A stretch of 64,000 bases of DNA from Ceratothoa steindachneri (lineage: Eukaryota; Arthropoda; Malacostraca; Isopoda; Cymothoidae). Below are positions 28,318-59,901 of this stretch, piece after piece. The position numbers and the translations under genes are program-made. Below the pieces are notes generated by a model, which was given only the letters and a program-made list of their open reading frames with translations, had not been told where the DNA came from and ran no database searches. The DNA lies in NCBI GenBank assembly GCA_963969495.1, contig OZ018321.1, forward strand, positions 106,592,557 to 106,656,556, in the 5' to 3' direction. How positions within the stretch are numbered: the stretch's first letter is position 1; each line of letters begins with the position of its first letter.

Positions 28318-31300
28318 TCAGTCTGTGTCCTCTTCTACATGCACTTTATCTACACACACATCTGATACTCCCTGATCAATCCCACTCAAATCTTCAACCA
28401 GCTTTTCTACTTTGTCCATCAATCCTTCCCATTCTTTCATAGTATTCATTGAATCTTGGTCTAAATGCACACTCATCTCATTTATACTCACTAACATTGA
28501 CTGAGACAATGAAAACTTACAAATACTATATGTTCCATCAAATCCTCTCTCCCGATCTGGTAAAAATCCAGAAAACTCATTCACCTCACATTTACCAAAC
28601 TGTTCAGTCCATCTATCCTTCCCCCTCCATGCTCAACTAACACTAACTGCTTCGCCTCTAAAGCACTAGCTATATCATTCAATGCTTCAAGGTATTCCAT
28701 GCTTTCAAAAAGATACTCATTCACCAGGTGTTGCAACAAATATTCAAGAGGTTCATGCCACTTCCCTAACTGACTTCCCTAACTGATGCTGATGCGCTCT
28801 ACATTCATCCAAACTTCCATCTTCTCTTTCACACATGATCACATTAGCCCATTCGACCAAAACTTTCTTACCACAAATGGACCTTCAAACTTCTCTTTCA
28901 ATTTATCCACATTCAGCATGCCTTTTGTTTCAATCTCTCTCAGCACTTTATCCCAAACACAAAAACTTTTAAACCTTGCATTCTCTCTTTTACCATAACT
29001 CAAAATCACTTTCACTAAGTCTCATACACGGCCTAATCATTCTCTCAAAATTCATTACATATTTACACAGTGACATTCCCGTCGCCTTATGTATAGTCAT
29101 ATTATACAACCAAAGTACTCTCCCTAAACATTCATCTCATTCTCTCCCATCTTTCACCACCAATTGTAACATCTTGCTCAAGGTTCTTATCATTCTTTTA
29201 GCCAAGCCATTCATGCTAGATACATACAGCGTCATTCGCAGATGATCAATCCCCCATTCATTCAACATCTCTTCAAAAGCACATCCTACAAACTCAGGTC
29301 CATTATCACAACATTCGCGCTGGCTTAGACACACACATTGGCAACAGTTTCTCACAACTCTAGCAACAGTCACAGGCATTTTATTCCTCAAAGGTGCAGC
29401 ATAAACAAACTTGCTCTTATGATCAACCATCACAACCATTCCAACTTGACCTTGCACAATCAAAGGCAAAGATACGCAATTGATTGCAACCATTTCAAAC
29501 AGTTCCTTCATGCACAATTTCAAAACAGGCAGACTCACATACACACTCTGGTATTTTCCCTTCTGACAAGCTTTGCAAGTAGTCGCAACATTCAAACAAA
29601 TTTTCATCAAAAATGGACTAAACACACACTCTTTCATGCACTCCCACAGCTTGTTCTTTCCCATATGTCCAAACCTCATGCATGATTTTCACCATCCTAA
29701 TTGCACCAGAAACTGAAAATACTGGAACATATACATCCTCCTCTTCTATCTTCATACAAAATAAATCACATCTCTACATAACGCAAACTTTTTAAACTCT
29801 TTCAATATACCACTCCATTCTTCAACAGAGACTCCTCAATACAATATCTTTCAGCTCACACACCATCAGACATGACTCTTGCATACTTTCAATATCATCT
29901 TCCATTAATAGATCTTCATTCATATTAACACTTGCTACTCCTGCAAATCTAGTCACACCTACAAGTTCTCTCTGCATATTTACCACAACCATACCATCTT
30001 TCATCAGGCACTCATTTCCTACATCCACCAAAATCACATTCCTTCGCAAGAAGTCAATCCCCAGCAAAAAGCAATAAAGTAGCTCAATCTTCCCTAACAC
30101 GACAAATTCATGCATCACATTTTCCAACTTTTCTATACTTACTTCCAAACTCCCCTCTTCCTATGCCTTCAAGTTTCCTTCTCCGAACCCAGAAATTGTG
30201 ATTGTAACATCTCGTCTAGGTATATTCCAACTCAGCTTCTCTACATCCCTCACCACTTTAGCATTCACCAAGGAAGTTTGCGCACGAATATCAATCATTC
30301 CACAATACCTTTTCCCATTTATTTGTAACACAATATGCATCCTCTTTTCAATCTCATGTTCACACACCACAATCGCAACTTTCATATCCTCAACCAAGAC
30401 CTCAGCAGCAACCCCATCATCATCATAAGCAAGTGCACACTCCTTGGGTACTTCATTCACATCTGTACATAATTCTTCTTGTCAATTAATCAATTATAAT
30501 GCACTTCACTCAGATTGTAAATGCAGCTCAGAGCCACTCTCTCTGCTCACCCCCTTACCACAATACACAGCAGGCTTTTCTCCTCCATAATGCGCATATA
30601 CACTCACACCAAACACCTTACTACCACTAAGACCTACTGGAACGGCATCACTCCCGGCAAACACATCACTTTCAATTCTTTCTTCAGCTTCTTCATATCA
30701 CCCATACCTAACTTATCAGGTCTTTTACACGCTTCTTCCAGAACAATTATTTGTAAGTCAATCACACTTTCAGGTACCTTAACTACTTATGCATTATTAG
30801 CCAAGTCTTGCAAGCCATAAAGCATGCTCTCAAACATAGAATTACCACCACCCTCACATCTCTTCCCAACAGTTAATACTTTTAGCAAATATTCAGGATT
30901 TATTCCAACAGTCACACTTTTATTTGCACTACCAGGTAATCTTGACATCAAATCTGCAATTTCATTCCTTTCACCGGGCAAATACTCTACCACAAAATCA
31001 AAATAACACAAATCTTCAATTGTCCTTGCAAGCCTGCTATCAACCAGGCTTTCAAGTATACTAAAGGTTGAAAATCCATTTGCACTACAAATTTCACTCC
31101 ATACAAAAAAGGTCTCAAGTGATTTCAAACAAAAACATAATGCAGCATTCTCTCTAAATTGCCATTCAAAACAAACATTCTCATCATACTCACATATTCT
31201 TATGTCTGGATTCCATCCAACCTTGATGCTAGACACTACATCCTTTTTCAATGGTACATTCTCAATAGCAAACATGTCTAATGCCTTCATCAAATTCAGT

Positions 31301-31715
31301 CTTACTTTTCTATCATGATTCACATACCATTGGCACCTCAAGCTTCTATTCCTCTTACATTCTATCATCCCCTGCTCCGAATCTACCACCATACCATTTT
31401 CTTTCAGAAACTTATACCTTAACAACATACATTTCTTATTTGCGCCATCTACCACACAAAACTCATCCTCACTCATTTGAACAGTGCTAACTAACACCTC
31501 CTTAAATCAGGCGATAATTGGCAGCTCTTTCTTTCCCAATCCAGCCAAACTACATCCACTTTCATAAGTTCCATTAACATTAATGCCTTCAAATGCTTGT
31601 TGAAATACCACATTCTCTCTCACCCCAATACACTACACATCTCGAGAACCCTTCTCTCACATTCATTACATTCAATATCTGCACACTAGAGGGTTCCACA
31701 GAAAGGAGCCTCTCA
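28318..31715 (-). pseudogene. Decayed Gypsy pol, RT deleted; PR1, RNase H remnant, OTU-like, PR2, integrase, tail
   Basis: A minus-strand relative of the young Gypsy pol in broken frames. From 5' to 3': the PR1 C-terminal part (SEDEFCVVDG, 31400-31490), then an in-frame jump over RT and most of RNase H to LARTIEDLCYFDFVVEYLPGE (about 30960-31060). An OTU-like stretch follows with GGGNSMFESM (Ser codon 30838-30840), PESVIDLQ and a late VHYN (about 30491-30505). A second protease region has GMIDIRAQTSLVN (30290-30330, active-site DTG decayed to DIR) and CFLLGIDFLR (about 30045-30080). The integrase (29137-29690) has KFVYAAP, CCDNGPEFVG and NGLAKRMIRTL. The tail at 28318-28584 has one NEFSGF motif. 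Confidence 0.8.
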
Positions 31716-32498: not shown

Positions 32499-32811
32499 AT
32501 GGAATGTCAAATTGAAAGAAAGGCGCATTTTCGACACTTGTTATTTATTTTTAATCGAGACAGGAACAATGCAAATGCAGCCAAAGCTCGTCGCGATATT
32601 TGTGCTGTGTAGGGAGAAAATGCTTTATCAGAAAGGACAGCTCAATGGTGATTTTCACGTTTCAAAAACGGTCATTTCAATCTTAATGACTAAGAACATT
32701 CTGGTCGCCCCATTAAGTTAGATGAAGATCGATTGAACGACCTTCTTCATGAAAATTCTCATCAATTAACTAGAGAATTGACTGTATAATTGGCGTGTGA
32801 TCAGAAAACTG
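32499..32811 (+). pseudogene. Mariner transposase, N-terminal part
   Basis: From the ATG at 32499 the frame reads the helix-turn-helix DNA-binding region of a mariner transposase: HFRHLLFIFNRDRNNANAA, KARRDICAV, ALSERTAQ, FKNGHFNLND and HSGRPIKLDEDRLNDLL. Four in-frame stops interrupt it, two of them at places where Tyr or Trp is expected. The frame is cut at AAA ACT G by the Gypsy LTR and continues at 41551. Confidence 0.85.
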
Positions 32812-33557
32812 TGTGGTGGAGCGAATGTGAGTGTGTGTAAAAGGGCCATTCTCCCACCCCTTTTCTAAGTACCCTCCCCCCTCCCTCTGTAAGAATGTGT
32901 GTGTGAATGGGAATGGGTTTGGTTTGGTTTTTGTTTGTTTGTTTTTTATTGATTAGCATGTTATTATAATTTTTTTTTTCTTATCTTTCCAGGCACCATA
33001 ATTTGGAAAGATAAATTACCCCTGTAATTGAAGCTATAACTGTTATTATTATTATACCAAAGGCCATTAGTATAGGACAAGGGTTCCAGGCCATGTTCTG
33101 TCCTATTTGATTGTGTATAAAATAGTTTAGCTTTAACGAAGGAGGGCTTATTAGAGCCACACAACTCTAACAAGGTTACCTATCTTAGTCCAAGCTCGGA
33201 GGTGCAATTTTGAATACAAAAATTTTGTAAGTAAAGGGACTGTATAACGTGAGCCCATCTTTTGTTGTTGATTGACTGTAGTAACCCAAATTTTATTTGG
33301 GTTGTTTGATTCTTATTGTTCCTAAAATCAATTAATAATAATTATAAGTGGGACTTATTTATTTTTTCTGATATATATATATATAGGCTCATTGGGTGCA
33401 CATTTACCCATATTTTTGTAAATATTGTATTTTTTTCGTGTTAGTAAAGGACTGTACATACAATCCGTTTCATTCTCCTTCGATTTCTCACGTCCGGATT
33501 AGTGTAGGAAGCGGGTTGGATCGATTGGGGTTAGTCTAAATTTTTCGGCCCGCTACA
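32812..33557 (+). repeat. 5' LTR of the young Gypsy
   Basis: 746 bp, TGTGGTGG...CCCGCTACA. It differs from the 3' LTR only by a few length changes in simple runs, one CpG C/T difference (CACGTCC versus CATGTCC) and perhaps one further base. It contains a TATAAAA box at 33116-33122. Confidence 0.95.
33116..33122 (+). promoter_or_regulatory. TATA box in the 5' LTR
   Basis: TATAAAA about 305 bp into the LTR, also present in the 3' LTR near 41107. It is the likely core promoter of the element transcript. Confidence 0.5.
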
Positions 33558-33559
33558 TT

Positions 33560-33577
33560 TGGCGCCCGAATAGGGAT
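33560..33577 (+). promoter_or_regulatory. Primer binding site, Lys-tRNA type
   Basis: TGGCGCCCGAATAGGGA starts two bases after the 5' LTR. It is complementary to the 3' end of a lysine tRNA of the Lys(UUU) type used by several retroelements (known site TGGCGCCCGAACAGGGA), with one difference. Confidence 0.8.
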
Positions 33578-33693
33578 GTGAGACTTCGAAACCGGGAGCG
33601 TGACGGGATTGGATTGCAGTCCATACCCAATTAGCGTGGCAGGTAGTTTGGTTGTTTTTCACCTTTGTCTATCGCGGTTACTAACCTGGGAGG

Positions 33694-35414
33694 ATGGCTT
33701 CTGTGGAACAGGGCCTCCATGATGAGATTGTGAGACTGAGGCTGGAATTGAGGCAGAAAGAGGAGGAATGTATGATGTTGAGGAACGTGATTGATGGATT
33801 GAAGAGTGATGTGATGAGTATGGATGAGAAGACAGACAAGATGAGGAAAGAAATGGACGAGAGACAGAAGCAGGTCGACCAACGGATGAAGGACTTGTAT
33901 GACATGATGAAGGGGTCAGGACCGGCCCTAGGACCCTCGACCTTGACCCCTGCTCCGACTGAAGGGGATAAGACTAATGGGATCAATGGGAGTGTGTGCG
34001 AGTCTAGAGAGGATAGGGTGATTATGAGTGATAGGAAGGACGGAGAATGGAAGAGAGTTGAATGCAAGAGAAGAAGGAAGAGTGGTGCAAAGGGGAAGGA
34101 TAGGAAGGTAAGAGGCAAGAGTGTGGACTCATTGTACTCGGATGAAGGAGAGAGTGATGGTATGATTGATATGAGTGAGAGTGAAGGCAGCTCAAGTGAG
34201 AGTGAAGTGAATGTGGGAAAGGGTATTTTGATAAGGGAAGTGCCAAAGATAGATAGATTTAGGTTACATGGTGGGAAAAGTGTGGAAGAATCCTTCGGGG
34301 AATTTGAGCGATATTGTAAGCTCAAGTACCCGGAAAATAAGGGATACTGGATGAATGTTTTGGGGGAATGTTTGGATGGAAAGGTATTAGATTTTTTTTC
34401 TGTGTGATCACAAGTGTGGGGGAACCAAGGTACGATGTGGTGAAGAAGCGGATGATTGGACAGGTGAAACGAATGAAAGAGAGTGTGAAGTATAAAAGGG
34501 TAAATGAATTTGAGAAGGCTTGAATGGGGAAAAGTGAAAGTGTGAACATGTATGCACATAGGCTTGAGAGTATGGCAAGAAAGAGGTATGGTGATGATGA
34601 TGTAAATGAATGTAAACCACTGATGAGGAAGTTTTTGGACACGATCCCGCGAAAGGTGAGTGAATGGCTGAGTGGAAAGAGAAAGGAGAGAATGAGACTG
34701 ACAGGTGAACGGTTGATGTGGGAGGATGTGTTGGAGCTGTTGGAAGATGGACGATTTAATGATGAAAGCGATCTAGAAGAGGATGGATGGTACAGTGTGA
34801 ACGTTGGGGATAAGAAGCCCAGGAGCTTTCATCCACCCCAGCAGTATGTCAGCTACAGGGATGCCCTGAAGGCTGCACCAGCTGGAGTGATGTCGAACTT
34901 CCTGGGCTGGCAGAATGGATGGGTAAATGGAGGGTGGTCAAATGGAAGGGGACAGATGAATTTCAAGCGTGGGAACGGATATATGAGAGAGAAACCGAGG
35001 TATGTCCCAGCAAACGAGAGATCAAATGGTGGGAGAAAGATTGTGGAATGTCATGGGTGTGGAAGGAAAGGTCATATGTTGGCAGAATGTAGGTGGACAT
35101 CTGGTGCATGTTTTGGTTGTGGTAAGAAAGGGCATATGATAAAGGATTGCCAGGAAAGTGTGAAAGAGTGCTTTGAGTGTAAAGAAATAGGCCATTTGAA
35201 GAAAGATTGTCCGAGGTTGAATGGTGGAGCAACTGCTGGGGGGAGTGTGAAGTATGCTTGTGGTAATTGTGGAAAGGCTGGTCATTATGCGAGGATGTGT
35301 CGTGACCAGAGGAATGTATGTAGCTATTGTGCGATGGAAGGACATTCAAGTGAAAAGTGTTGGATTAGACTGAGAGCGCAAGGTGTGAATGGAAAGTCTG
35401 AAGCGGGAAACTGA
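33694..35414 (+). pseudogene. Young Gypsy gag (capsid and five zinc knuckles), two lesions
   Basis: The frame opens at ATG 33694 with a charged coiled-coil-like N-terminus (EIVRLRLELRQKEEECMMLR onward), a basic and acidic linker, and a capsid-like region (SFGEFERYCKLKYPENKGYW). Frame 1 ends at a TGA at 34405 just after a T8 run, and frame 3 continues seamlessly. A second TGA at 34521 sits where related copies have Lys. From 34524 the frame runs to 35414 with five CX2CX4HX4C knuckles: CHGCGRKGHMLAEC, CFGCGKKGHMIKDC, CFECKEIGHLKKDC, CGNCGKAGHYARMC and CSYCAMEGHSSEKC. Gag would package element RNA. The gag stop overlaps a frameshift signal. Confidence 0.85.
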
Positions 35415-35446
35415 ATGGTAAGAGGGTACCTGCTGAAGTATCCTCT
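35405..35446 (+). promoter_or_regulatory. Predicted -1 ribosomal frameshift signal at the gag end
   Basis: The heptamer G GGA AAC (35405-35411) is in the correct gag register and is directly followed by the TGA stop. After a 9-nt spacer, AGAGGGTA (35421-35428) can pair with TATCCTCT (35439-35446), 8 bp including one G-U, around a 10-nt loop. A -1 slip moves ribosomes into frame 2, which is open to about 35533. Known -1 sites in retroviruses use this heptamer class and spacing; function here is inferred. Confidence 0.7.
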
Positions 35447-35517
35447 GGGTGCATGAGTGTGAGTAATGTGTTGGTAAGTCTGTCGAGTGTGAAAGTGCTG
35501 TCTGATAGGAAGTATGA

Positions 35518-38500
35518 GTGTCTGAGTGTCTGAGTGTGAAGGTGGAATTGAATGGAATTGAGTGTTTGGCTTTAATAGATTCTGGATGCAAGGCGAGCTT
35601 GGTGTATAAAGATGTGTATGACAAGGTTAGCGAGAAAGCCCTCCTGTCTGAGTGCAAGGGTAGTTTGGTAGGTATTGGTAATAGGAGAGTGCCTGTGATT
35701 GGAATGATAAGGTCAGCTGTTCGAATGCATGGTATGATGATGAATGAATGTGAATTTTCTGTGATTGATAAGGTGAGTAGTGAGTATGGTGTGATTTTGG
35801 GCTATGATTTTATGAAAATGAATCGTATGGTTGTGCATCCTGCGAGTGATCATATTGAGGGAAAGATTGGTAAAAATGGGGTGTATAAGTTATATGTAGG
35901 GAAAGATGGTAGTGTTTTGAGGAGTGTGTTTACTGGTATTGAGGTGACTGCTATGGAGAATGTAAGACTTGTGAAGGGTGAAAGGGTGTCTGTTAGAGTG
36001 AGTTGGAGTAAGGATGTTAGTTTGAATGTGAGTGAGAACACTGTGATATTGGATGGAAAGGATGCGTGTTATAAGGTAAGGCGTGTTGCTTGTGTGTTTG
36101 ATGGCTTGATGAGAATGAATGATCCTTTTGTATGTGTGCAGGCGGACCCCAGTGTGAAAGGGCAGGTGAGGGGAATCCAAGTCGGAGATGTACTGGGCCA
36201 CCTCTCCACTGTCAATGAGGTAGGTATGGATGATAGTACGGATATCAGGGTGAATGTTGCGAATGAAAAGACATGTGAATGGATGTATAATGAGGTGAAG
36301 GACATGGTGAAATTGGATGGATGTTCAACTGAGTATGAAAGGGAGGATGTGTATCGAATGATATTTGAGCGAAAGGGAGCCCTCAGTAAGGGTGATCTGG
36401 ATTTCGGGGTTGCAAAGCTCCCGGAATTCAAGATTGTCCTGAAGGAGGACTCCCCAATCTATCAGCGGCCGAGGCATTTCCCACGTCCGGTTGCTGATGA
36501 GATTGAGGAGCAGTGTTTGGAATTGGAGCAATTGGGGGTGATTGAAGAGAGCGAGAGTGCATGGAATAGTCCAATTGTACCTGTACGTAAGCCGGATGGA
36601 AGATTGCGTCTGTGTGTGGATTATCGAAAGGTGAATGAAAGGACTGTGAAAGAAAGGTTTCCGATGTGTGAGGTATCTGAGTGTGTGTATAGTATGCATG
36701 GGATGGAGTGGTTTACGAAGCTGGATCTGGTACGGGGGTATTACCAGATGCCCATTGCTGAGGAGAGCCGGCCAGTAACTGCCTTCTCTTCCTCAAAGAG
36801 GCATTACCAGTTCCGGAACCTCAGCTTTGGGTTGGCTAATGCTCCCGGAGCCTTCCAGCGGGCAATGAATGTTGTGTTGAGTAAGTTTGCGAGTAAGAAT
36901 GTGATTGCGTTTATAGATGATATTTTGATTATGACGGAGACTTTTGAGGAGCATATGAGATTGGTGAATGATGTGTTGAGAACGTTGGAGAGTGTTGGTG
37001 TGAAGGTGAAAGTGGCGAAGTGTGAATGGTTTGCGAAAGAAGTGGAATTCCTTGGGCATATGGTGAGTGAGAATGGGTTGCGAAAATCACCGAAGTATGT
37101 TGAGAAGGTGCGAATGTTTCCTAAACCGGTGACTGTGAAGCAACTGAAGTCGTTTTGGGGTTTGATTGAGTTCCAGCGAAAGTTTATACGTGATTGTTCT
37201 GGTGTGAGTAAGCCTCTGACTGAGTGGATGGGCAAGAAAGGTAGTACGGTTGTCAAGTGGAATGATAAGATGAATGAGGCGTATGAGAGACTGAAAGAGG
37301 CAGCGGCTGAAGATGTTGAATTGGCTTACCCAGATTATAGTGTAAATGCAAAAATGCTTGAACTGTATACAGATGCGAGTGGGTATTGTATGGGAGGTTT
37401 TCTGATGCAAGAGCAGCGTTTGAATGGAGAGAATGTCAGGCGAATAATTGGGTATGTATCCAAGGCTATGAATGTTGCAGAACGAAAGTATTCGACTGTG
37501 GAACGAGAGCTGGCTGCGATAAGATATTGTTTGAAAGTGTTGCGTCCATTTTTGTATGGTGTGAGGTTTGTGATAAAAACCGATCATCAACCTCTTGTGT
37601 ATCTGCAGCGTATGAAGTGGGCTGATAGTAGGATTGCAAGGACTTTGAAAGATTTGAGTGACTTTGACTATGTGATTGAGTATGTGCCTGGTGAACGGAA
37701 TGGAGTGGCTGATTTGATGTCAAGGTATCCTGGTACGAATGATGAAAATGTGTGTGGAGTGAGTGATCCTGAGTATTTGCCGAAAGGGATTATGAATGGA
37801 AAAGAGAGTAAGGGTGGTGGTGATTCCTTGTTTGAGAGTGTATGGAATGGTTTGCAAGATTTAAAGAGTGATGGAGTAGACGTGAGAGTGCCCGATAGTG
37901 TAGATGATTTAAGGAAGGAGGTAATGAATGAAGTGTGTAGGAAGCCTGAAAGCATTGGTATGGCAAAGGTGCGGAACTTCATGAAAGAATTGAGAGCGAT
38001 GTGTATGCAAGGGGTCCCGCCATTTCAGGAAGTGTTGATTGTAGTGAGTCGTTTGTATGGAGTGATTGTTTATGTGCACTTTGGTGGTGAGAGGCCGATT
38101 GTGTACAAGGATGAGAAGATGAAGGGTTTGAATCCAAATGTGGTACATCTGCAATGTTTGAGCGGTGTGCACTACAATTGGGTGATTGAAAAGTGTTCAT
38201 ATATAAGAGAGAAGAATGATTGTCTGGATGAAGATGAGTGTGTGGTGAGTGATGATATGGGAGTAAATGACAGTGTGGATATAAGTGCTGATGTTGGTGT
38301 GCTTGTTCCTTCAGTGTATTGCGAACATGGTGGACCTGATATGATGGAAGCGAGAGTGAAAGTTGGTGAAAGGTTGTTCTGTGGTTTGATTGATACTGGA
38401 GCGCAGGTGTCTTTAGTGAATGAGAGGATTCTAAGTAAGTATGATGAGTTTAAATGTTGCGAGCATAAACCTGTGAAGTTACAGATAAGTGGATTAGGGA

Positions 38501-40758
38501 ATGGCTTGATAGTGGCATGGGAACAGGTTAGTCTGAAAGTGAGTTTGGGTAATGGTGTGAATGTGAAGCATGACTTTGTGATTCTGAAAGGTGAGCAAAT
38601 GCCTTGTTGTTTCTTGCTTGGTGTAGACTTTATGAGATTGAATGATTTGTCTTTGGATGCTGATAAGGATTGTCTTATGAAAGGTGAATGTGAGGTGATG
38701 AGGTTGAATGAGTGTGCAAAGAACGTTGTCAAGTTTTGTGGTATGATTGAGTTGGTCATGGATGATGAGAATGAGATTTTAAGTGATGATGATATTCTAG
38801 AGATGCAAGAGATGTGTCCTTTTGTTAGTGAGTTGAAGAGGTGTGTAATGATGCGTGTTGATTTGAATGAATGGCCAGAGTGTTTAAGTGATTTTAAAAG
38901 GTATGCTAAGGATTTTGTTGTTTGTATGGATGTTGTATATTTTGTGAGGCATGTGAAGGGTGGTGATGATATGTATGTACCTGTGATGTCCTTAGTTGGT
39001 ATGATTGGTCTGGTGAAGGTTGTGCATGATAATTATGGGCATATGGGTAAGTTTAAGCTGTGGGAGTGTATGAAGGAGCGTGTGTTCCATCCGTTTCTGA
39101 GAACTGTTGTGAATGATGTTGCAACTACGTGTGAAAGGTGTCAGAAGCGAAAGGTGCAAGGTGTGCAAGTGAAACCACCGATGTTGAAAGTTGATGCGAA
39201 AGAACCGTTTGAATTGGTAGTGATTGATTGTGTCTCTTTGCCGCGTACGAGTGCTGGGAATGTTGGTATGGTTGTTATGGTTGATCATAAAAGTAAGTTT
39301 GTGTATGCAGCGCCTGTGAGAGATAAAAGGAGTGTGACTGTTGCGCGTGTGGTTGAGCAGTTGTTTTTTCCTATGTGTGTATGGAAGCCTAGAAGATGTC
39401 TGAGTGATAATGGGCCTGAATTTGTAGGGGAAGTGTTTGAGCAAATGTTGAGAGAGAATGGTGTGGAGCATGTGAGAACAACTCCGTATGTACCGTCTTC
39501 AAATGGATTAGCTGAACGGACTATAAGAACCTTGTGTGAGATGTTGAGAATGATGAGTACGACAGTGAATGACTGGGATGTGTGTCTGGGGAGAGTGTTG
39601 TGGGCGTATAATTCAACTGTGCATAGTGCAACTGGAATGTCCCCATGTCAGTTTGTGATGAATTTTGAAAGGCGAGTGAAAGATAGGTTTCGTTTGAGTG
39701 AAAGTGAGCAGAGTGTATGGCGTGAAGCGCATGAAAGGTTCCGTTCATTTGAATTAGGTACAAAAGTATTGAAGGTGAAAGAAGTGAAGGGTAGGTTGAA
39801 TGTATCAAAGATGAGTGAGAAGTTTGATGGACCTTATAGAGTTGTGAGAGTTTGGGAAAATGGGGTAACGTATGTTTTGGAGAGTTTGAATGACGGCATG
39901 ACTGAGAGAGTGCGGGCTCATCAGAGTCAGTTAAGGAGATGGAGGGAACCTCCTGACTACCTGGTGAGCCATCCAGTGTATGGACTGTGTAGAGAGAGAG
40001 GTAAAGTGCATGATGATGAGAATGAATGTGATAGTATGGATCTGTCTGGGAAAGAGCTAGTCTTAGTCTCGAGGAGTAGAAAGCGTACAAAGAAGGGTGA
40101 AAGGAAGAATGCAAGTACGAATGAAAGTAAGTCTGAGCAGAGTGTTTCTGGTATGGGGGATCTTGAAAGGGAGATTGAGTTTTTGCGTAAACAGGTGAGT
40201 GATTTGGCTGGTATAAGTAGACGAGTGAGTGAGCTGCCTGTGCCTGATTTTTCTGGTTTTGGTAACAGTATGAATGATAGTGTGTTTGGGCAGAATGAAC
40301 CTAGTGTGGCTGATTTTTCGGGTTTTATGAATGGTAATAGTAGGGGTGAGTTTGATGTAGTGAATGATGAAGTGGCTGATTTTTCAGGTTTCTGGTGGGA
40401 ACCAGTCGAAGGGGTTTCTGGTATGCCTGTTGAGAATACAGGGGATGTGAGTGACCTGTCTGTTTCGCAAGAATGTACCTTGAGTTGGATGAGAGCTGTG
40501 AGTGAGGAGCTGATGAATGGGGGTATGAAGAGTGAGGGTTCTGAACGGAAGAGTATGAAAGAATTCTGTCGTGAGATGGGAGAACTGGTAATGAGGGCTA
40601 AGAGTATGGTTGATGAGATGATAAATAGTGACGATGAGACTGACAGGACGACTGACGAACAACCCCGACTAATTGCTACGCATAGCCAGGGACCAGTAGA
40701 AGAGTGTGAATGGGTGCAGAAGGGTGCGATTGAGCACAAGTGGTACCGTGAAGAGTGA
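35518..40758 (+). CDS. pol: Young Gypsy pol: PR1, RT, RNase H, OTU-like, PR2, integrase, repeat tail
   Basis: Open frame of 1746 codons from a GTG after a stop at 35515; it would normally be reached by frameshifting from gag. Domains by residue: PR1 (LIDSGCKASLV, Asp21; ILGYDF 93-98). RT about 305-520 (LCVDYRK near 364, LDLVRGYYQM Asp403, FIDDIL Asp467-468). RNase H about 612-740 (YTDASG Asp619, ERELAAI Glu664, TDHQPL Asp689). OTU-like 762-892 (GGGDSLFESV with Ser770, VHYNWV with His885). PR2 about 940-1060 (LIDTGAQVSLV Asp959, LLGVDF 1033-1038). Integrase: His1170, His1175, Cys1205, Cys1208 finger and Asp1237, Asp1297, Glu1333 catalytic set. Tail with DFSGF repeats at 1577, 1599 and 1621. 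All catalytic residues of RT, RNase H, both proteases and integrase are present. Confidence 0.92.
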   Translation: MSECLSVKVELNGIECLALIDSGCKASLVYKDVYDKVSEKALLSECKGSLVGIGNRRVPVIGMIRSAVRMHGMMMNECEFSVIDKVSSEYGVILGYDFMKMNRMVVHPASDHIEGKIGKNGVYKLYVGKDGSVLRSVFTGIEVTAMENVRLVKGERVSVRVSWSKDVSLNVSENTVILDGKDACYKVRRVACVFDGLMRMNDPFVCVQADPSVKGQVRGIQVGDVLGHLSTVNEVGMDDSTDIRVNVANEKTCEWMYNEVKDMVKLDGCSTEYEREDVYRMIFERKGALSKGDLDFGVAKLPEFKIVLKEDSPIYQRPRHFPRPVADEIEEQCLELEQLGVIEESESAWNSPIVPVRKPDGRLRLCVDYRKVNERTVKERFPMCEVSECVYSMHGMEWFTKLDLVRGYYQMPIAEESRPVTAFSSSKRHYQFRNLSFGLANAPGAFQRAMNVVLSKFASKNVIAFIDDILIMTETFEEHMRLVNDVLRTLESVGVKVKVAKCEWFAKEVEFLGHMVSENGLRKSPKYVEKVRMFPKPVTVKQLKSFWGLIEFQRKFIRDCSGVSKPLTEWMGKKGSTVVKWNDKMNEAYERLKEAAAEDVELAYPDYSVNAKMLELYTDASGYCMGGFLMQEQRLNGENVRRIIGYVSKAMNVAERKYSTVERELAAIRYCLKVLRPFLYGVRFVIKTDHQPLVYLQRMKWADSRIARTLKDLSDFDYVIEYVPGERNGVADLMSRYPGTNDENVCGVSDPEYLPKGIMNGKESKGGGDSLFESVWNGLQDLKSDGVDVRVPDSVDDLRKEVMNEVCRKPESIGMAKVRNFMKELRAMCMQGVPPFQEVLIVVSRLYGVIVYVHFGGERPIVYKDEKMKGLNPNVVHLQCLSGVHYNWVIEKCSYIREKNDCLDEDECVVSDDMGVNDSVDISADVGVLVPSVYCEHGGPDMMEARVKVGERLFCGLIDTGAQVSLVNERILSKYDEFKCCEHKPVKLQISGLGNGLIVAWEQVSLKVSLGNGVNVKHDFVILKGEQMPCCFLLGVDFMRLNDLSLDADKDCLMKGECEVMRLNECAKNVVKFCGMIELVMDDENEILSDDDILEMQEMCPFVSELKRCVMMRVDLNEWPECLSDFKRYAKDFVVCMDVVYFVRHVKGGDDMYVPVMSLVGMIGLVKVVHDNYGHMGKFKLWECMKERVFHPFLRTVVNDVATTCERCQKRKVQGVQVKPPMLKVDAKEPFELVVIDCVSLPRTSAGNVGMVVMVDHKSKFVYAAPVRDKRSVTVARVVEQLFFPMCVWKPRRCLSDNGPEFVGEVFEQMLRENGVEHVRTTPYVPSSNGLAERTIRTLCEMLRMMSTTVNDWDVCLGRVLWAYNSTVHSATGMSPCQFVMNFERRVKDRFRLSESEQSVWREAHERFRSFELGTKVLKVKEVKGRLNVSKMSEKFDGPYRVVRVWENGVTYVLESLNDGMTERVRAHQSQLRRWREPPDYLVSHPVYGLCRERGKVHDDENECDSMDLSGKELVLVSRSRKRTKKGERKNASTNESKSEQSVSGMGDLEREIEFLRKQVSDLAGISRRVSELPVPDFSGFGNSMNDSVFGQNEPSVADFSGFMNGNSRGEFDVVNDEVADFSGFWWEPVEGVSGMPVENTGDVSDLSVSQECTLSWMRAVSEELMNGGMKSEGSERKSMKEFCREMGELVMRAKSMVDEMINSDDETDRTTDEQPRLIATHSQGPVEECEWVQKGAIEHKWYREE
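37801..38194 (+). other. OTU-like domain within pol (Ser in the Cys position)
   Basis: Residues about 762-892 of pol. The series GGDSLFESV, SVDDLRKEV, MKELRAMCMQGVPPFQEV, VVSRLYGVIVYVHF and VVHLQCLSGVHYNWV parallels OTU cysteine proteases (DGNCLFRAV, then the ELR helix, then a G-x-WGG-x2-EL-type block, a hydrophobic strand, and ihL..g-HYN at the end). Nucleophile and His are 115 residues apart, in the OTU range. The nucleophile position is TCC (Ser770), not Cys. Confidence 0.7.
38320..38700 (+). other. Second retropepsin-like domain within pol
   Basis: Residues about 940-1060 of pol, between the OTU-like part and the integrase zinc finger. It has FCGLIDTGAQVSLVNERIL (DTG triad at 959-961), a middle strand VKLQISGLGNGL and the LLGVDFMRLN flap-to-end motif. 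This set is equivalent to the first protease (LIDSG ... ILGYDF) but in the canonical DTG form. Confidence 0.8.
40246..40460 (+). repeat. 22-residue tandem repeats in the pol tail
   Basis: DFSGF begins at residues 1577, 1599 and 1621, exactly 22 residues (66 nt) apart, and a degenerate DVSDL begins at 1643. Only the first five positions of each unit are well kept. Confidence 0.8.
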
Positions 40759-40794
40759 TTGAAAAGGTTTAGTGAGTGGCTGGTCGAATGGCTT

Positions 40795-40807
40795 AAGGAA
40801 GGAGGGG
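40795..40807 (+). promoter_or_regulatory. Polypurine tract of the young Gypsy
   Basis: AAGGAAGGAGGGG lies immediately before the 3' LTR. Confidence 0.85.
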
Positions 40808-41550
40808 TGTGGTGGAGCGAATGTGAGTGTGTGTAAAAGGGCCATTCTCCCACCCCTTTTCTAAGTACCCTCTCCCTCCCTCTGTAAGAATGTGTGTGTG
40901 AATGGGAATGGGTTTGGTTTTTGTTTGTTTGTTTTTTATTGATTAGCATGTTATTATAAATTTTTTTTTTCTTATCTTTCCAGGCACCATAATTTGGAAA
41001 GATAAATTACCCCTGTAATTGAAGCTATAACTGTTATTATTATTATACCAAAGGCCATTAGTATAGGACAAGGGTTCCAGGCCATGTTCTGTCCTATTTG
41101 ATTGTGTATAAAATAGTTTAGCTTTAACGAAGGAGGGCTTATTAGAGCCACACAACTCTAACAAGGTTACCTATCTTAGTCCAAGCTCGGAGGTGCAATT
41201 TTGAATACAAAAATTTTGTAAGTAAAGGGACTGTATAACGTGAGCCCATCTTTTGTTGTTGATTGACTGTAGTAACCCAAATTTTATTTGGGTTGTTTGA
41301 TTCTTATTGTTCCTAAAATCAATTAATAATAATTATAAGTGGGACTTATTTATTTTTTCTGATATATATATATATATAGGCTCATTGGGTGCACATTTAC
41401 CCATATTTTTGTAAATATTGTATTTTTTTCGTGTTAGTAAAGGACTGTACATACAATCCGTTTCATTCTCCTTCGATTTCTCATGTCCGGATTAGTGTAG
41501 GAAGCGGGTTGGATCGATTGGGGTTAGTCTAAATTTTTCGGCCCGCTACA
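40808..41550 (+). repeat. 3' LTR of the young Gypsy
   Basis: 743 bp, same ends as the 5' LTR and almost identical to it. Confidence 0.95.
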
Positions 41551-42294
41551 ACTGTAGTGAATCACCTTCATTTGATGGGAAAAGTTAAAAAACTCGGTGC
41601 ATGGGTTCTGCACAATTTGAGCGAAAGAAACAAACTGCAACTTTCCACGATTGCCGCAGGTTTGTTGCTTGTCACAAGGATACTTGTGGATATAAGGACA
41701 GATTTATTCACCACATCATCACTGGTGACGAAAAGTAGTGTGTTTATGTCAATATGAACCATCAAAAACAATGGCTTAGCCCCAATAAAAACCCACTTCC
41801 GCAATTAAAGCAAGGACTTCATCCACGAAAGACAATGCTGTATATGTGTGCTGGGATTGTGAAGGCATCAATCTTTATGAGCTCCTTGCAAACAACGAGA
41901 TTTCCAATGCAGAACTCTACGTTCAACAAATGTATCGACTTGCCGAAGCTATTTGTGAAAAGCGACCTCATCAATGTTATGGAGTCCTTCTGCAACATGA
42001 CAATGCTCGTCCTCACATCGCCAATATGTCAAAAGACACCATCCAAATGCTTAAATGGGAAATCCTGCAGCAGCATCCATATTCGCTAGACTTGGCTCCA
42101 TTGGATTTCCATCTGTTCTGATCGCTCTACAACATTTGCGTGGTGTTTCGTTCAATACTGATTTGGAATTAAGAACCTGGTTAGACGAATTCTTTAAGTC
42201 AAAATCCGGAGATTTTTATTGCAGACGCATCGGAAAACTAGTTGAACGTTGGGAAGAAGTCGTAAATAACAACGGGGAATACATTATTGATTAA
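41551..42294 (+). pseudogene. Mariner transposase, catalytic part
   Basis: The frame continues after the Gypsy insert. VNHLHLMGKVKKLGAWVLHNL is followed by HHIITGDEK with a stop where Trp belongs (first catalytic Asp), then LLQHDNARPH (second Asp) and YSLDLAPLDFHLF (third Asp of the DD34D triad; Pro and Ser of the usual YSPDLAPSD box are altered). The C-terminus GDFYCRRIGKLVERWEEVV and NNGEYIID ends at TAA 42292-42294. Frameshifts near 41660 and 42120 and one or more stops inactivate it. Confidence 0.85.
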
Positions 42295-45714: not shown

Positions 45715-48551
45715 GAGTCATTATGGCTAAATGTAAAGGAAGGTAAAAACAAGCTTGTCATAGGATTATTATACTGACCACCAAATCTTAGTAAGGAAGC
45801 TTCAAATCTTCTGTGGCAGGAGATTGAACGGGCATGTAGAAGTAAGCATGTGTGTATAATGGGCGATTTTAATTACAGAAATATAGACTGGGAAGCTCTT
45901 GTGGGTGATCAGGAGGCTGAGGAATTTTTGAATGTTGTCCAAGATAATTTTCTGAGGCAGATTATTAACGAACCCACTAGAGGTAATAATATACTGGATT
46001 TAGTTCTGACAAATAGGGAAGAAGTTATTAAGGATACTGAGATTGGAGGAAATTTGGGTAATAGTGACCATTGTGAAATTAGATTCAAGATGAAATGGAA
46101 TGGTATTGATAGTAGCATGAACAATGTTGAAATTCCTGACTTTAGAAGAGCAAATTATAATGGGCTAAGGACTTACCTGGAGGCAGTTGTACAGAAACCA
46201 GGCAATGAAATCAATTCAGGAATAGATTCAATGATATCAGTTAGTGGAGACAATAATCACCAGGAGGAAGAGATTACAATTGAAGAGGAGTATGAAAGAA
46301 TAATTGAGCAATTAATTACAGGTCAGATGATTAACATTCCTTATAAGGAGATTAGGACTAAAAATAATGACCCAAAATGGATGACAGATAAAATTAAGCA
46401 TTATATTGGCATTAAAAAGGGCATTTATAGGAAAATAAAAAATGGAGAGGATCACTTAAGGCAGAGATATAATGAACTAGCAAGAGATGTTAAAAAGTTA
46501 GTTAGAGTAGCAAGGAGAAATTATGAAATTAAAGTGGCAAATAGGGCAAAGGAAGATCCTAAAAGTTTTTATCAATTATACAAAACTAAGGTTAGAGATA
46601 AAATAGGCCCACTTATAGATTCCAATGGAGAATTAGTGAGTGATAGGGACTCAATGGCTGGAATGCTAAATGACTTTTTTCTCTCAGTATTTACACAGGA
46701 GGATACTCTAAATATACCTGAGGTGTCAATGATCTTTCGGGGTAATGATGAAGAGAAATTAAAGGATATCTTGATCACAAAGGAGATAGTGACAAAGGAA
46801 ATTGATAAAATCAAAAGTAGTAAAGCACCCGGTCCTGATGAGGTCTTTCCTAGAATTTTGAAAGAATGTAAGGATGTGTTAAGTGAGCCCCCTAGCATGC
46901 ATCTTTAGAAAATCATTGGAGAGTGGCATTGTGCCAGTGGCATGGAAGAAAGCCAATGTGATACCTATATTTAAGAAAGGGGATAAAACAAATATGTCTA
47001 ATTACAGACCAGTAAGTTTGACATCAGTGGTAGGGAAAATGATGGAATCTATTATAGCAAGGAATATTAGGGATCACTTGGATAAGCATAAGTTGATAAA
47101 AGAATCACAGCATGGCTTTAGTAAGGGTAAATCCTGCCTGACTAATTTGCTGTCTTTTTATAGTAAGGTGTATGAAGCAGCAGATAAGGATGAAAACTAT
47201 GATATTTTATACTTGGACTTTAGTAAGGCTTTTGATCGAGTGCCACACTTACGGCTTCTGAGCAAAGTTAAAGCACACGGGATCGATGGCAGTATATTTA
47301 GGTGGATTCAGTCATGGCTTGGTGACAGACAGCAAAGAGTTAGTATAGATGGAGTTAAATCTGAGTGGGGGTGTGTTAGCAGTGGAGTTCCGCAAGGATC
47401 TGTTTTGGGTCCCTTGCTATTCTTAATTTATATTAATGATCTTGACATAGGTATAAGTAGTGACCTGAGTAAATTTGCTGATGATACTAAGCTAGGTAGG
47501 GCCATTAGGGCTGATTCTGATGCTGTTGTAATGCAGGAGGAATTGACCATTCTGTCCAATTGGGCTGAGAAATGGCAAATGAAGTTTAACATAGACAAAT
47601 GTAGTGTACTTAGTATAGGTAGAAATAATCCACTGAATAGTTATAAATTAAATGGGAGAAATTTAGGGAGGACCGATTGTGAGAGGGACTTGGGTATTTT
47701 GGTAAGTTCAGACCTTCGTCCTAGAAAGCAATGCCTAAATGCTAAGAATAAAGCTAATAGGATATTGGGATTCATTAGGAGGAGTGTAAGCAATAAGAGT
47801 GCTGAAGTCATTCTAAAACTGTATCTGGCGCTAGTTAGGCCTCATCTAGACTATGCAGTACAATTTTGGTCACCATATTATAGGAAGGATATTGATTTGC
47901 TTGAGTCTGTGCAGAGAAGGATGACAAAGATGATTGGTGGGCTAAGGAACTTACCTTATGGTGAAAGGCTCAGAAAACTAAATCTACATACATTGGAAAG
48001 GAGAAGAGTCAGAGGGGAATTGATTGAAGTCTTCAAATGGGTAAAAGGATATAATAAAGGGGATCTGGGTAAGGTTCTTATACTTAGTGAACATGACAGG
48101 ACACGTAGCAATGGGTTTAAGCTTCATAAGTATAGGTTTAGGAAGGAGATTGGGAGGAATTGGTTTACAAATCGTGTGGTAGATGAATGGAATAGGCTCA
48201 CTAGACATGTGATAGAAGCCTCCTCTCTGGGTAGTTTTAAGAATAGATTAGATAAATATATGGATGAAGCTGCTAGATGGGACTGACTTTTTTATGTACA
48301 TATGTATATATTTTTCTAAGGAGTGGGGAGATTATTTTGCGGTTGCATGAATGGACATAATCCTCTGGATGCATTTTATGTATATTGTAGATTAGATCTG
48401 ACGAACTCCTTTAAAGGGTGACAATGTTGATGACTTTTCTCTGGTAAGAAATCTTTTGTGTGTTGACTGGAACAGGAGCTGCCAAGTGTAGGCCATGAAT
48501 GGTCTTTTGCAGTCTCCTTCTTTTCTTATGTTCTTATGTTCTTATGTTATC
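45715..48551 (+). mobile_element. CR1-like LINE, plus strand, 5'-truncated
   Basis: Carries the endonuclease C-terminal half, reverse transcriptase, C-terminal domain and 3'UTR. It ends in a TTCTTATG repeat tail (about 48522-48550), the short-repeat type of 3' end expected for CR1 rather than poly(A). It belongs to a different subfamily from the minus-strand copies, whose tails are TTATG repeats. Confidence 0.85.
45727..48286 (+). pseudogene. CR1 ORF2 (endonuclease, RT), one frameshift
   Basis: Endonuclease blocks are CIMGDFNYRNIDWEAL, TNREEVI and NLGNSDHCEIRF. After a spacer (SKAPGPDEVFPRILKE) the RT carries PIFKKGDKTNMSNYRPVSL, QHGFSKGKSCLTNLLSF, LYLDFSKAFDRVPH, VPQGSVLGPLLFLIYINDL and KFADDTKLG, all catalytic Asp present. 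The thumb and C-terminal region run to TNRVVDEWNRL and the stop at 48284. The single coding lesion I see is one extra C in a run near 46888, shifting frame 1 to frame 2. Otherwise the last 800 codons look sound, so the copy is fairly young. Confidence 0.85.
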
Positions 48552-50299: not shown

Positions 50300-53168
50300 A
50301 TCTGCGCTTGAAAACATTCAAGTTTGGGCTGTCTACAGTCTCAGGTGGCAAACTATTTCAATAATCCACCACTCTGTTAGTGAAAAAATATTTTCTAACA
50401 TCCAGTCTGCACCTCTGTTTTTTAATCTTTAAGTGGTGGCCTCTAGTTCTATTACTACCTTCTAACTCAAATAACTTGCTGAAATCCAATTTATCTATCC
50501 CAGGAAATTTTTTAAAAAGCTCAATCATATCTCCCCTCACACACCTTCTTTCAAATGAAAACATATTTAATACACTCAGTCTATCTTCGTATTCAAGGTG
50601 CTTCAGGGATGGTATTATTTTTTTTGACCTCCTTTGTACTGACTCTAATAAGTTTATATCATGTCTAAAATGTGGTGACCATGCCTGTATACAGTACTCT
50701 AAGTGTGGCCTGACATAAGAGTTGTATAGTTTAAGAATGACCTCCTTACTCTTGTAGCTAACATTTCTTTTAATGTAACCTAGCACCCTATTTGCTCTAT
50801 TTTTTGCCTTGATATACTGCTTTGAAAATTTCAGTGACCTATCTACTACTACTCTTAAGTCCTTCTCATCTTCAACTGAATTAAGCCAATACCCATCCAT
50901 CTCATAGCTAAATTCCCTATTATCTCTCCCCATGTTAATAACTTTGCATTCATTAAGGTTAAAAGTCATCTGCCACTTCTGAGCCCAAGCTAACAACTTA
51001 TTTAAGTCACCTTGCACTTTAAAGCTACCCTCAACCTCTTTGACTACAGATGCCAATTTAGTGTCATCAGCAAAAATTGACACTTTGCTATTTACACCTT
51101 GCCCAAGATCATTTACATAGATTATAAATAATAAAGGGCCTAAAACTGATCCCTGAGGTACGCCACTAATAACATTCCTCCACTCTGACCTCACTCCATT
51201 CAGTATAGCTCTCTGTTTCCTATTTTTCAGCCATTCACTTATTCAATTTAAAACGTTCCCACATATCCCATGCAGCTTTAATTTCTCACCCCTTTTCAAT
51301 TCTTTAGTTACATAATCCATAAAATCCAGTAAATTAGTTAAACACGATCTACCTTTTCTAAAACCATGCTGAGCATCATTAATTAACCTGCTACTCTCTA
51401 GATGATCAGAAATTCCCTTCTTAACCATCTTCTCAAGAATTTTACAGACTATAGAAGTTAAGCTTACCGGTCTAAAGTTATTTGGGTCCTCTTTGCTTAC
51501 CTTTTTAAAAATTGGCACTACATTTGCCAATTTCCAATCATTTGGTATTTCTCCAGACTCTAGTGATCTAATAAATATCTTCTCAAGAGCTACTGCAATA
51601 CTTTCTACACCTTCTTTGAGTATCCTAGAATGAAAGTTGTCAGGGCCAGATACCTTACTAGTATTTAACTGCATTATAAGCCCTTTAATTTCTTCTCTGT
51701 CTATATTAATAGAATTTATCACTACTTCCCTTGACCTAGAATTATCATCAATTAATCTAACTGGTTTCTCTTCTGTGAAAACTGAAGCAAAATGATCATT
51801 AAGGACCTCTACTATTTACTCATCAGATTCTTTCAAAACCCCTTCATATTTAATAGGCCCTATTTTATCACTGTTAGATTTATTATTGATTCTATAATAG
51901 CTAAAGAATTTTTTAGGATCTTTATTATTATTTTTAGCTAAATTAATTTCTGCTGTCCTTTTGGTCTTCTTAATAATCTTATTTAGTTCATTTCTGGTTG
52001 ACCTATAATGGTTTAAATTATCTAAACTACTCTCAATTTGTAATCTCTGGTATGCCCTTTTTTTCTCTGAAACTTTATTAGCTATTTCTTGATTCCACCA
52101 TAATGGTTTTCTACATTTCTTCCTAATAGACTTCATTGGAATACACTGTTCCTGAACCCTGTTTAATAGAGTCTTAAAAATATCCCACATCTCATAAGTA
52201 TTCTTTCCATAGAATTCTATATCCCACCTAATCTGATTTAGCATGCTGCGTAATTTATCGTAATCTCCCCTATAAAAATTTGGAATTTTTGTGGAGTTTG
52301 TCGTTGTTCTACCCTTAACTATTTTCAAATTAAACCGAACCATCTGATGATCACTGTTTCCCAATGATTGCCCTACACTCAATCCTTGAACTAAGTGATC
52401 ATCATTTGAAAGAATTAGATCTAATATATTGGCACCCCTTGTTGGCTTATTAACAAATTGGGTCAAAAAGTTATCCTCAAAACACTCCATAAACTTACAA
52501 CTTGCTCTATCTCTTCCTATCATATTTTCCCAGTCTACAGAAGTTAAATTAAAGTCACCCAGAATAACTGTATCTTCTTTGCATCCTTTACTTATTTCCC
52601 TAATCATTAACTCATCGATGCAATTAGTCTGTCCTGGTGGTCTAAAAAAAGCTCCCAAGTGTATTTTCCTATTTTTACCAACCTTAATATCTATCCATAA
52701 TGATTCACCTTCTCCTTGCTTTATAGAGTTATTTAGATTTGAAGAAATGCTATTTCTGATATAAATAATCAACCCACCACCAGTCCTATCTCTCCTTTGA
52801 CTAATGTAGATAGTATAATCTTCTAGTTCAAATTCACTGACATTATCATTAAATATATTTTCATTAACCCATGATTCAACTATACATATTATATCTATAT
52901 CTTCATGAATGATATAACTAAATAATTCATCCCTCTTACTTCTAAGACTACGAGCATTTGTGTAAAGACAACTCAGCCCACCTATCCCTGAAGCACCTGA
53001 GGACCTATCTCCTCTGCATCTCCTTTCTCTCCTTCCCCGACCCTGTACTCTTGTATTTTCCTGACCACTATCACTACTGAAGTAATTTAACCCTAAAGCA
53101 CTTTCATTAGCCTGCCTACCTTCTACAAATCTGTGTTTGCTTCCTTTCCCTGCCTCACTTTGAGCCAT
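50300..53168 (-). pseudogene. CR1 ORF2 (endonuclease and RT) with stops and an in-frame deletion
   Basis: The start ATG at 53168 lies 26 nt after the ORF1 stop. The endonuclease has CLYTNARSLRSKRDEL, CIVESWVNEN, RTGGGLIIYIRNSI, ILGDFNLTSVDWEN and GNSDHQMVRF. A TAA near 51812 ends the first frame. RT resumes with NNFRPVSLTSIVCKILEK and QHGFRKGRSCLTNLLDF but lacks about 24 residues holding catalytic motif A (the YLDFSKAFD block present in the copy at 6263). It continues after another stop with SGVPQGSVLGPLLFIIYVND, IFADDTKLA and the C-terminal domain to about 50300. No active polymerase. Confidence 0.85.
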
Positions 53169-53194
53169 TAAATTTCCCTGACCACTATCAAAAC

Positions 53195-54214
53195 CTAGTT
53201 TTCCACCTCTAAAGACCTAATAACACTATCTAATTCCTGCCACAAAACCTCAACCCCATCTCGGCTCAGATGGAGTCCATCCATCGCATACAAACCCTTA
53301 TTCCCATAAAACCCACTCCAAACATCTACAAACACCAATCCTGACTCCTGGCACAAACCTTTCACATATTCATTCAACCCCATTGCACGAGACAACCATT
53401 CCATCCCTACATCCATTCTTGGAAGCACACCTGAAACAACTCCTTTTACTCTACTTTCACACATCCTTTCAATCAGCCTTTTATACTGCTGTCGTAACTC
53501 ACAAGTACCCATCTTCTTTACATCGTTTACTCCGATATGTGTAATCACAACTGCTTCCCTCTCACACCCAGACACCAATGTATCATACCTCTCACACACA
53601 TCATTTACACCAGCACCTGGCAGACAAACTCTCACTCCCTTCCATTTACTTTCACTCAACTTCCTATCTAAATACCTAATCTGAGAGTCACCCATCACAA
53701 TCACCTCGGTCATTCTCCTATTCTCTCTAGGCCTAGTATTACCCTTCCTCCTGCTCTCACTCACTCGACCTCCTATTCTACTTTCAGGCACGGTCACACC
53801 AGACAAATCTCTTTCAAATTCTTCCTCTCTCAGGGCATCAAATCTGTTAGTTAGCCTAACAGATTCCATGTCCCTCTCATTCACACACCTAACCTGTCCT
53901 AACTTACCTATTCTGTTCACTTTCACCCACCACTCATTATCACTTACTTCACTTACTGCTTTCTCTCCAGTCCCTGTTCTAGGCCTAACTTCCTCCCTCC
54001 TGGTCCCAATCTGACTCTTCAAACGTCCACTTGCATCTCTTCTCACTTCAGACACTAAATCGTTCAGTCTCAAGCATTCTGCACGTAATTGACTCACCTC
54101 CTCAGTCAAAGCACATACATGGCACTCAGACACATTCACTCTCCTCTCTACACCACAGACATCGCACACTACAACATACACACTACTTTCAAAAGGCATA
54201 CTCTCTACATCCAA
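53195..54214 (-). CDS. CR1 ORF1: zinc-finger-like, coiled coil and SGNH esterase
   Basis: Uninterrupted 339-residue frame from ATG 54214. The N-terminus has a cysteine cluster (CDVCGVERRVNVSECHVC, about residues 17-34), then a leucine-rich coiled-coil-like segment (LTEEVSQLRAECLRLNDLV). The C-terminal half is an SGNH/GDSL hydrolase with VIVMGDSQIRYLD (Ser nucleophile), PGAGVNDVC (Gly block), THIGVNDVKK (Asn block) and DGLHLSRDG (Asp/His). CR1/L2-type elements are known to carry PHD-like plus esterase ORF1 proteins, so this fits the family. It stays intact although ORF2 of the same copy is dead. Confidence 0.88.
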   Translation of the reverse strand: MDVESMPFESSVYVVVCDVCGVERRVNVSECHVCALTEEVSQLRAECLRLNDLVSEVRRDASGRLKSQIGTRREEVRPRTGTGEKAVSEVSDNEWWVKVNRIGKLGQVRCVNERDMESVRLTNRFDALREEEFERDLSGVTVPESRIGGRVSESRRKGNTRPRENRRMTEVIVMGDSQIRYLDRKLSESKWKGVRVCLPGAGVNDVCERYDTLVSGCEREAVVITHIGVNDVKKMGTCELRQQYKRLIERMCESRVKGVVSGVLPRMDVGMEWLSRAMGLNEYVKGLCQESGLVFVDVWSGFYGNKGLYAMDGLHLSRDGVEVLWQELDSVIRSLEVEN

Positions 54215-58735: not shown

Positions 58736-58762
58736 GTACTGTATGTGATGACTCCATGTTAA

Positions 58763-59901
58763 TCAGGGGCCATCCAACAGTAGACCGAGGAATTTGTGTT
58801 TTAGACTAAAGGGGATAGGGGAACCATCAATGGTGACCATAGGGATGTTGGGTATGCGCCTTCTAGTGAAGCACAATAGGCTGGACTTCTGGGCACTCAT
58901 TGTCAGGCCCCAATAGGAAGTCCAAGAATGGATGACATCAAGCCCCCGTTGGAGTGTAAGTTGGGCCTCTTGAATGGTGGAAGCAGAGCAAATGAGGGAG
59001 ATGTCATAAGCATAGAGTAGTGCTTTTGTGCCAGGAGGGAAAGGGAAGTCAGAAAGTAGGACATTGAATAGCAAAGGACTGAGTGGAGAACCCTGAGGGA
59101 CACCTCTGGTGACTAGGTAGAACCTAGAGTAGGTGCCACCAATCGCCAAGGAGAAGGATTTTTCCATTAAGAAAGACTGTGAACCCATTCTAGTGGTGGA
59201 CCTATGAGTCCTAGGTGGGCTAGTTTAGAAATAATTCCATTGTGTGAGGTGGAATCAAAAGCTCCCTCTAAATCTAGAAAAGCTACCAGTGTGAAGTGTC
59301 TTTCTTTGAACCCTTTCTGGATGCAATGTTCCAGTAAGAGCAGGGCATCCAGGGTGCCCCGGTGAGGGTGAAACCTGAACATGTTGGGTGGAAGGAGGTG
59401 TTTGCATTCCAGCCACCAGGTTAACCTATTTAGTATAATGTGTTCTAGAACTTTACTGATGTTGGAGAGGAGACTAATTGGTCTATAGGAGGAGGCCTCC
59501 GTCGGGTCTTTGCCAGGTTTAGGGATAGGGTTGGTGATGGCATAACGCCACACCGAGGGGAAAATCCTCGACAGCCAACTGGTTTTGAGGATTTCTAGAA
59601 GGAGCTGTTTCAGAGCATCTGGGAGGCACCGGAGAAACTCATTCGGTATGGTGTCAAATCCTGTTGCCCTTCCTTGAGACAGTGATCTCAAAACTGAGGA
59701 AAGTTCCTGGGGAGTAATAGCATTGCTAATTTCATGGCTGGAGTGTGAGGAAGAGTGTAACACAGGTGGGAGCACCTGGTCTTGAGAGCCGAGTGTGGTG
59801 TCAATGTGGGCCGCAAAGCACTCAAATTTTTGGGCATCGATGGAGAGAAGGGCACCGTTACTAATTAATGGGAAAGTGAATGAGGGTTGTGGGTGGACCA
59901 T
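58763..59901 (-). pseudogene. LINE E ORF2, reverse transcriptase
   Basis: Frame 59167-59901 has the fingers (NPIPKPGKDPTEASSYRPIS, LLSNISKVLEHIILNRL) and motif A (AFLDLEGAFDSTSH). After a frame break near 59180, frame 58763-59188 has RGVPQGSPLSPLLFNVLLSD and ALLYAYDISLIC, in which the catalytic YADD is YAYD. LTMSAQKSSLLCFTRRR follows. Loss of the first Asp of this pair would abolish polymerisation. Confidence 0.82.

Follow-up and report, generated by a model that had tools for sequence, protein, structure and literature searches.

A Ty3/Gypsy Pol of Ceratothoa steindachneri carries a predicted OTU-fold domain with serine at the nucleophile position and a second retropepsin

Can an OTU-like domain with serine in place of the catalytic cysteine be a working part of a retrotransposon Pol protein, and what would it do there? 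The question is raised by a Ty3/Gypsy element (32812-41550, plus strand) in the genome of Ceratothoa steindachneri. The element lies in a stretch of 64,000 nt (GCA_963969495.1, OZ018321.1:106,592,557-106,656,556, forward strand), here called the window. A first-pass annotation of this DNA had described OTU-like motifs at pol residues 762-892 (37801-38193), between RNase H (RH) and integrase (IN), with Ser770 at the nucleophile position and His885 as the histidine. Reading of the open reading frame (ORF) agreed with the motifs as quoted and with the position of both residues, which are encoded by TCC (37825-37827) and CAC (38170-38172); Asn887 is encoded by AAT (38176-38178). The location between RH and IN was also correct, but a second retropepsin (PR2) directly downstream of the domain had been missed. 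With the first retropepsin (PR1) and the reverse transcriptase (RT), the order of the pol domains is PR1-RT-RH-OTU(Ser)-PR2-IN. The OTU-fold domain looks like a conserved working part of this pol and not like a product of decay. The reading we favour, at slightly less than an even chance, is that Pol of this Ty3/Gypsy clade carries an OTU-fold hydrolase of ubiquitin or a ubiquitin-like protein (UBL), in which Ser(Thr)-His-Asn would replace Cys-His-Asn/Asp.

The fold of the domain was predicted with confidence, and the structure match covers model residues 1-144 of 155. In the predicted model the whole domain adopts the three-dimensional fold of the OTU superfamily; a non-OTU fold, named beforehand as the outcome that would speak against the OTU likeness, was not returned. 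Structural matches to cellular OTUs share 14-17% identity over the aligned residues. Sequence searches were far less telling. The 155-residue stretch between RH and PR2 was without any Pfam match, and none of 14 members matched the Pfam OTU model PF02338, where four families were listed at E 0.11-0.21. The same model does detect other, Cys-type OTU copies in the host genome. These belong to a separate repeat family with 42 PF02338 places; the nucleophile was Cys at all eight loci read (L031-L038), with the motif GNCLF, and HYD where the read extends that far. A single-sequence PDB search reached E 0.22-0.56 at best, with no OTU among the matches, and the de novo proteins that it matched were taken as chance. 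NCBIfam gave four matches, three of them to magnesium chelatase; the best of these (E 1.5e-5, a stretch of 36 residues) scored 22.8 bits where the cut-off is 1166, and they were likewise attributed to chance. The OTU identity could not stand on sequence alone and depends on the predicted fold. The missing Pfam and PDB matches are what would be expected if the serine were a degenerate remnant and the OTU likeness fortuitous. This explanation is very improbable and was rejected on the predicted fold match, the conserved columns and the purifying selection described below.

Three protein searches yielded 30 relatives (P0003-P0032), which are pols or pol fragments. Every hit was kept in an alignment of 31 domains including that of the window, with pairwise identities of 22-73%. 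The nucleophile column contained Ser in 28 of 30 domains, Thr in two (P0016 and P0019) and Cys in none; the truncated P0026 has a gap at this position. The histidine column contained His in 30/31 domains and Asn in P0017. Ser770 and His885 fall into conserved columns; columns without conservation had been named beforehand as the other outcome against the OTU likeness. The residue after His was always aromatic (Phe in 20 domains, Tyr in 11), corresponding to the aromatic gatekeeper of deubiquitinases (DUBs), and Asn two positions past His was present in all 31. Ser was preceded by Asp in 26 domains and by Asn in four. Like OTU cysteine peptidases, the domain possesses the catalytic His with an aromatic residue and Asn directly behind it; unlike them, it has Ser/Thr where the first long helix begins and where their catalytic Cys is located. 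Seven positions were strictly invariant over the 31 domains, including the Asn and excluding Ser and His, while a set of 14 rows had 12 invariant positions, among them Ser, His and Asn. The chance that three named positions of 145 are all invariant is 4.4e-4, a post hoc value that ignores clustering.

Copies in the host genome (3.93 Gb in total) were used to examine selection. In the first search 7371 candidates came up, of which 150 were scored; all 150, the window copy included, were identical to the query over 155 amino acids. DNA differences among the first 30 copies were uninformative on selection because their protein is identical to the query. A second search with a distant relative as query scored 150 of 4812 candidates. 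From these results 28 copies were read, comprising eight given loci and 20 picked by hand from the 150 rows, with a mild bias from the Ser-bearing query. Twenty-two belonged to the subfamily of the window and six to a second subfamily, which is 54% identical. Ser, His, Tyr and Asn were retained in all 28. The decayed minus-strand relative in the window also has Ser, encoded by TCT, as had been pointed out before. The suggestion that the serine is an inherited state is supported by its retention across relatives and host copies. After exclusion of three copies with stop codons, six comparisons between the window and the second subfamily gave dN/dS values of 0.24-0.28, at dS values of 1.2-1.4 that are near saturation. 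Four copies of the same subfamily with dS >0.2 gave 0.10-0.23, and the values of very close copies scattered from 0 to 0.49. The OTU-fold domain is under purifying selection. At C9:271975-352625 of the host genome, five copies with identical OTU protein are spaced by about 20 kb, which suggests a tandem array containing the element.

Distant relatives have the same layout, with the OTU domain between RH and PR2; PR1 was present in 22 of 30 pols. In 20 pols, OTU divergence followed RT-RH divergence (r 0.893, 0/999 permutations), and the corresponding correlations were 0.856 for PR2 and 0.889 for IN. The domain was probably captured once and then descended with the element, which explains why its divergence tracks that of RT-RH. 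Searches of viral contigs revealed no relative, and the search of phage records gave none either.

Predicted models and alignments show the fold, the register, the Ser/Thr-His-Asn set, selection and the constant neighbourhood. In a hydrolase built in this way, the aromatic gatekeeper would serve to engage ubiquitin or a UBL at its Gly-Gly tail. Most DUB classes, and the UBL proteases cleaving at Gly-Gly, are characterized by an aromatic residue that follows the catalytic His (PMC7391069). At the predicted site, Ser770, activated by His885 and Asn887, would attack the Gly-Gly tail. Ubiquitin or a UBL might be stripped from candidate substrates such as Gag-Pol or host proteins in the particle, and removal of the modifier would protect the replication complex.

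Several observations weigh against hydrolysis. A profile search with the 14-row set placed OTUD5 and OTUD3 at E values of only 0.25 and 0.29, and AMP kinase (E 0.2) outranked both, although this and other unrelated profile matches were taken as chance. The -3 position, occupied by Asp in the usual DGNC, was Gly in 29/30 domains and Ser in one. Decay is not certain as the cause of the exceptions in the active site, as P0016 with Thr retains RT, RH and IN motifs, and the short ORF of P0017 (890 amino acids), in which Asn replaces His, still contains those of RT and RH. Moreover, the Ser-OTUs Otu and CG3251 of Drosophila cleaved no ubiquitin chain tested, and a Ser-to-Cys exchange restored no activity (PMC4654579). 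The domain might accordingly be a pseudo-OTU that binds ubiquitin, a UBL or another partner without hydrolysis and anchors Pol or the particle to Gag or host factors modified with ubiquitin, Ser and His being kept for binding geometry. We consider binding of this kind almost as likely as hydrolysis. It fits the Drosophila proteins, which are inactive in vitro yet functional (PMC4654579), and it would accommodate the two Thr, the single Asn for His and the absence of the -3 Asp from all 30 domains. In contrast, Ser/Thr in 30/30, His in 30/31 and Asn in 31/31 domains at identities down to 22% is tighter than would be expected for binding alone, and CG3251 showed no detectable ubiquitin chain binding (PMC4654579).

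The position at the RH-IN junction next to PR2 would also suit a role independent of ubiquitin, either in polyprotein processing, for instance a cut of Pol near RH, or in structure, such as RT-IN assembly. OTU-like folds within RNA virus polyproteins were among the predicted viral structures matched, which points in the same direction. This role is nevertheless unlikely, given that the pol already encodes two D[TS]G retropepsins and that the aromatic residue typical of DUBs and UBL proteases follows the His in every domain (PMC7391069).

PR2 displays both the D[TS]G motif and the retropepsin fold. Cys219, Cys239 and Cys315 (P0002 numbering) are invariant around the DTG, and His221 was found in 19/21. 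These residues may form a zinc or disulfide site. The nearest solved folds or sequences are Ddi1 and retroviral-like aspartic protease 1 (ASPRV1). PR2 differs from both by its three invariant Cys and near-invariant His. A special kinship between PR2 and Ddi1 was dropped, as PR1 matches Ddi1 better (best E 9.2e-12 versus 3.4e-9). Returning to the hydrolase reading, processing of the polyprotein would fall to PR1 and PR2, which would act either as a homodimer each or together as a heterodimer. It is rather doubtful that the full picture holds, namely a serine/threonine OTU-fold hydrolase of ubiquitin or a UBL in retrotransposon particles, belonging to a DUB class not yet known, together with a Cys-rich, possibly zinc-bound PR2 that may pair with PR1.

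The host element has the features of Ty3/Gypsy retrotransposons, with long terminal repeats (LTRs), a short target-site duplication (the 4 bp ACTG on both sides) and the order PR-RT-RH-IN. The two LTRs, each taken without its first base, differ by two mismatches and nine gap columns over 748. The insertion is recent, as judged from these nearly identical LTRs. Only 49 bp separate the end of pol from the 3' LTR and therefore leave no room for env. The element family is young and abundant in the host genome. For the Pfam search the pol was cut into pieces, and some domains run past the cut edges.

Table 1. Coordinates of the Ty3/Gypsy element, its encoded domains and the adjoining decayed copy in the window
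Feature	Position	Strand	Details
5' LTR	32812..33557	+	746 bp; ends TG..CA; target-site duplication ACTG 32808-32811 upstream
Putative primer binding site	33560..33577 (end approximate)	+	directly after 5' LTR; position read off the sequence
Gag nucleocapsid ORF, CCHC zinc knuckles	34524..35414	+	Pfam zf-CCHC E 7.6e-13
pol ORF, 1746 amino acids, open throughout	35518..40758	+	ORF reading
PR1, first retropepsin (DSG)	35530..35835	+	Pfam Asp_protease E 2.8e-7
RT, C-terminal part	36718..37062	+	RVT_1 E 1.8e-25; domain begins upstream of the search cut
RNase H	37351..37665	+	RT_RNaseH E 1.3e-27
OTU-fold domain, Ser at nucleophile position	37765..38199	+	predicted fold, alignment
Ser770 codon TCC, equivalent of OTU catalytic Cys	37825..37827	+	structure match, alignment
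His885-Tyr886-Asn887: catalytic His, aromatic gatekeeper, presumed third active-site residue	38170..38178	+	alignment
PR2, second retropepsin	38320..38721	+	DTG at 38392-38400
IN, H2C2 finger and first part of core	39013..39429	+	Integrase_H2C2 E 2.2e-9, rve E 1.3e-7; core extends past the cut
3' LTR	40808..41550	+	743 bp; target-site duplication ACTG 41551-41554 downstream
Decayed pol of the same Gypsy clade	28387..31684	-	older, with stops and frameshifts; inverted, adjoins the young element; Ser at 30838-30840

Other repeats in the window are LINE-like. Pieces with RT and endonuclease are located at 50361-54214 (minus strand), where an upstream ORF matches GDSL-like lipase (E 1.8e-9); esterase ORF1s are known from CR1/L2 LINEs. 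Further fragments with endonuclease, RT and RNase H were found at 45850-48283 (plus strand) and 57710-61026 (minus strand).

Comparison with known systems places the domain close to cellular OTU deubiquitinases such as OTUD3, OTUD1, OTUD5/DUBA and yeast Otu2. They have in common the whole-domain fold, the nucleophile at the N-terminal end of the first long helix and the His-aromatic-Asn/Asp motif that opens the last strand. Unlike these proteins, the Pol domain has Ser/Thr for Cys and Gly for the -3 Asp, shares only the low identity given above and is embedded in Pol. A later report is said to describe activity of Drosophila Otu; our literature search did not find it. Otu and CG3251, Ser-type homologues of OTUD4, resemble the Pol domain in the Ser at the nucleophile position, but they are cellular Tudor proteins and keep the -3 Asp (D37) that the Pol domain lacks (PMC4654579). 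Within that protein family Ser arose several times among Cys relatives (PMC4654579), whereas none of the 30 Pol domains has Cys. Serine-type DUBs had not been described according to PMC4654579 (2015).

Fusion of an OTU-type domain to a transposition or replication enzyme, as seen here in Pol, has been published for Ginger1 transposases (PMC2836005), animal and certain fungal Helentrons (PMC6431247) and adintovirus PolB (PMC11071296). These are DNA elements and not LTR pols, and the available passages mention no second retropepsin. The Ginger1 and Helentron OTUs are termed cysteine protease domains (PMC2836005, PMC6431247), in contrast to the Ser of the Pol domain. The LTRs, the zinc-knuckle Gag and the domain order are shared with the usual Ty3/Gypsy element; the Ser-OTU and the second retropepsin between RH and IN are not. 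Neither an OTU domain nor two retropepsins in a Gypsy pol were found among the titles, abstract openings and passages covered by targeted searches of the open-access literature, whose scope did not extend to Repbase and GyDB. "OTU" in PMC2577118 denotes a taxonomic unit and not the domain, no passage on tandem peptidases was found in the available part of PMC2642776, and the passages obtained from PMC9210306 and PMC10561763 contained nothing on the domain. The single parts are of known kinds, while their combination and the clade-wide serine state appear new.

With Ser in 28 of 30 domains, Cys in none and purifying selection, this lineage allows a direct test of whether OTU hydrolases of a serine type exist, and the abundant young family provides material for such tests. 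The domain and PR2 add to a Gypsy Pol a fold linked to ubiquitin as well as a further protease, a combination relevant to the way in which retroelements handle ubiquitin control by their host.
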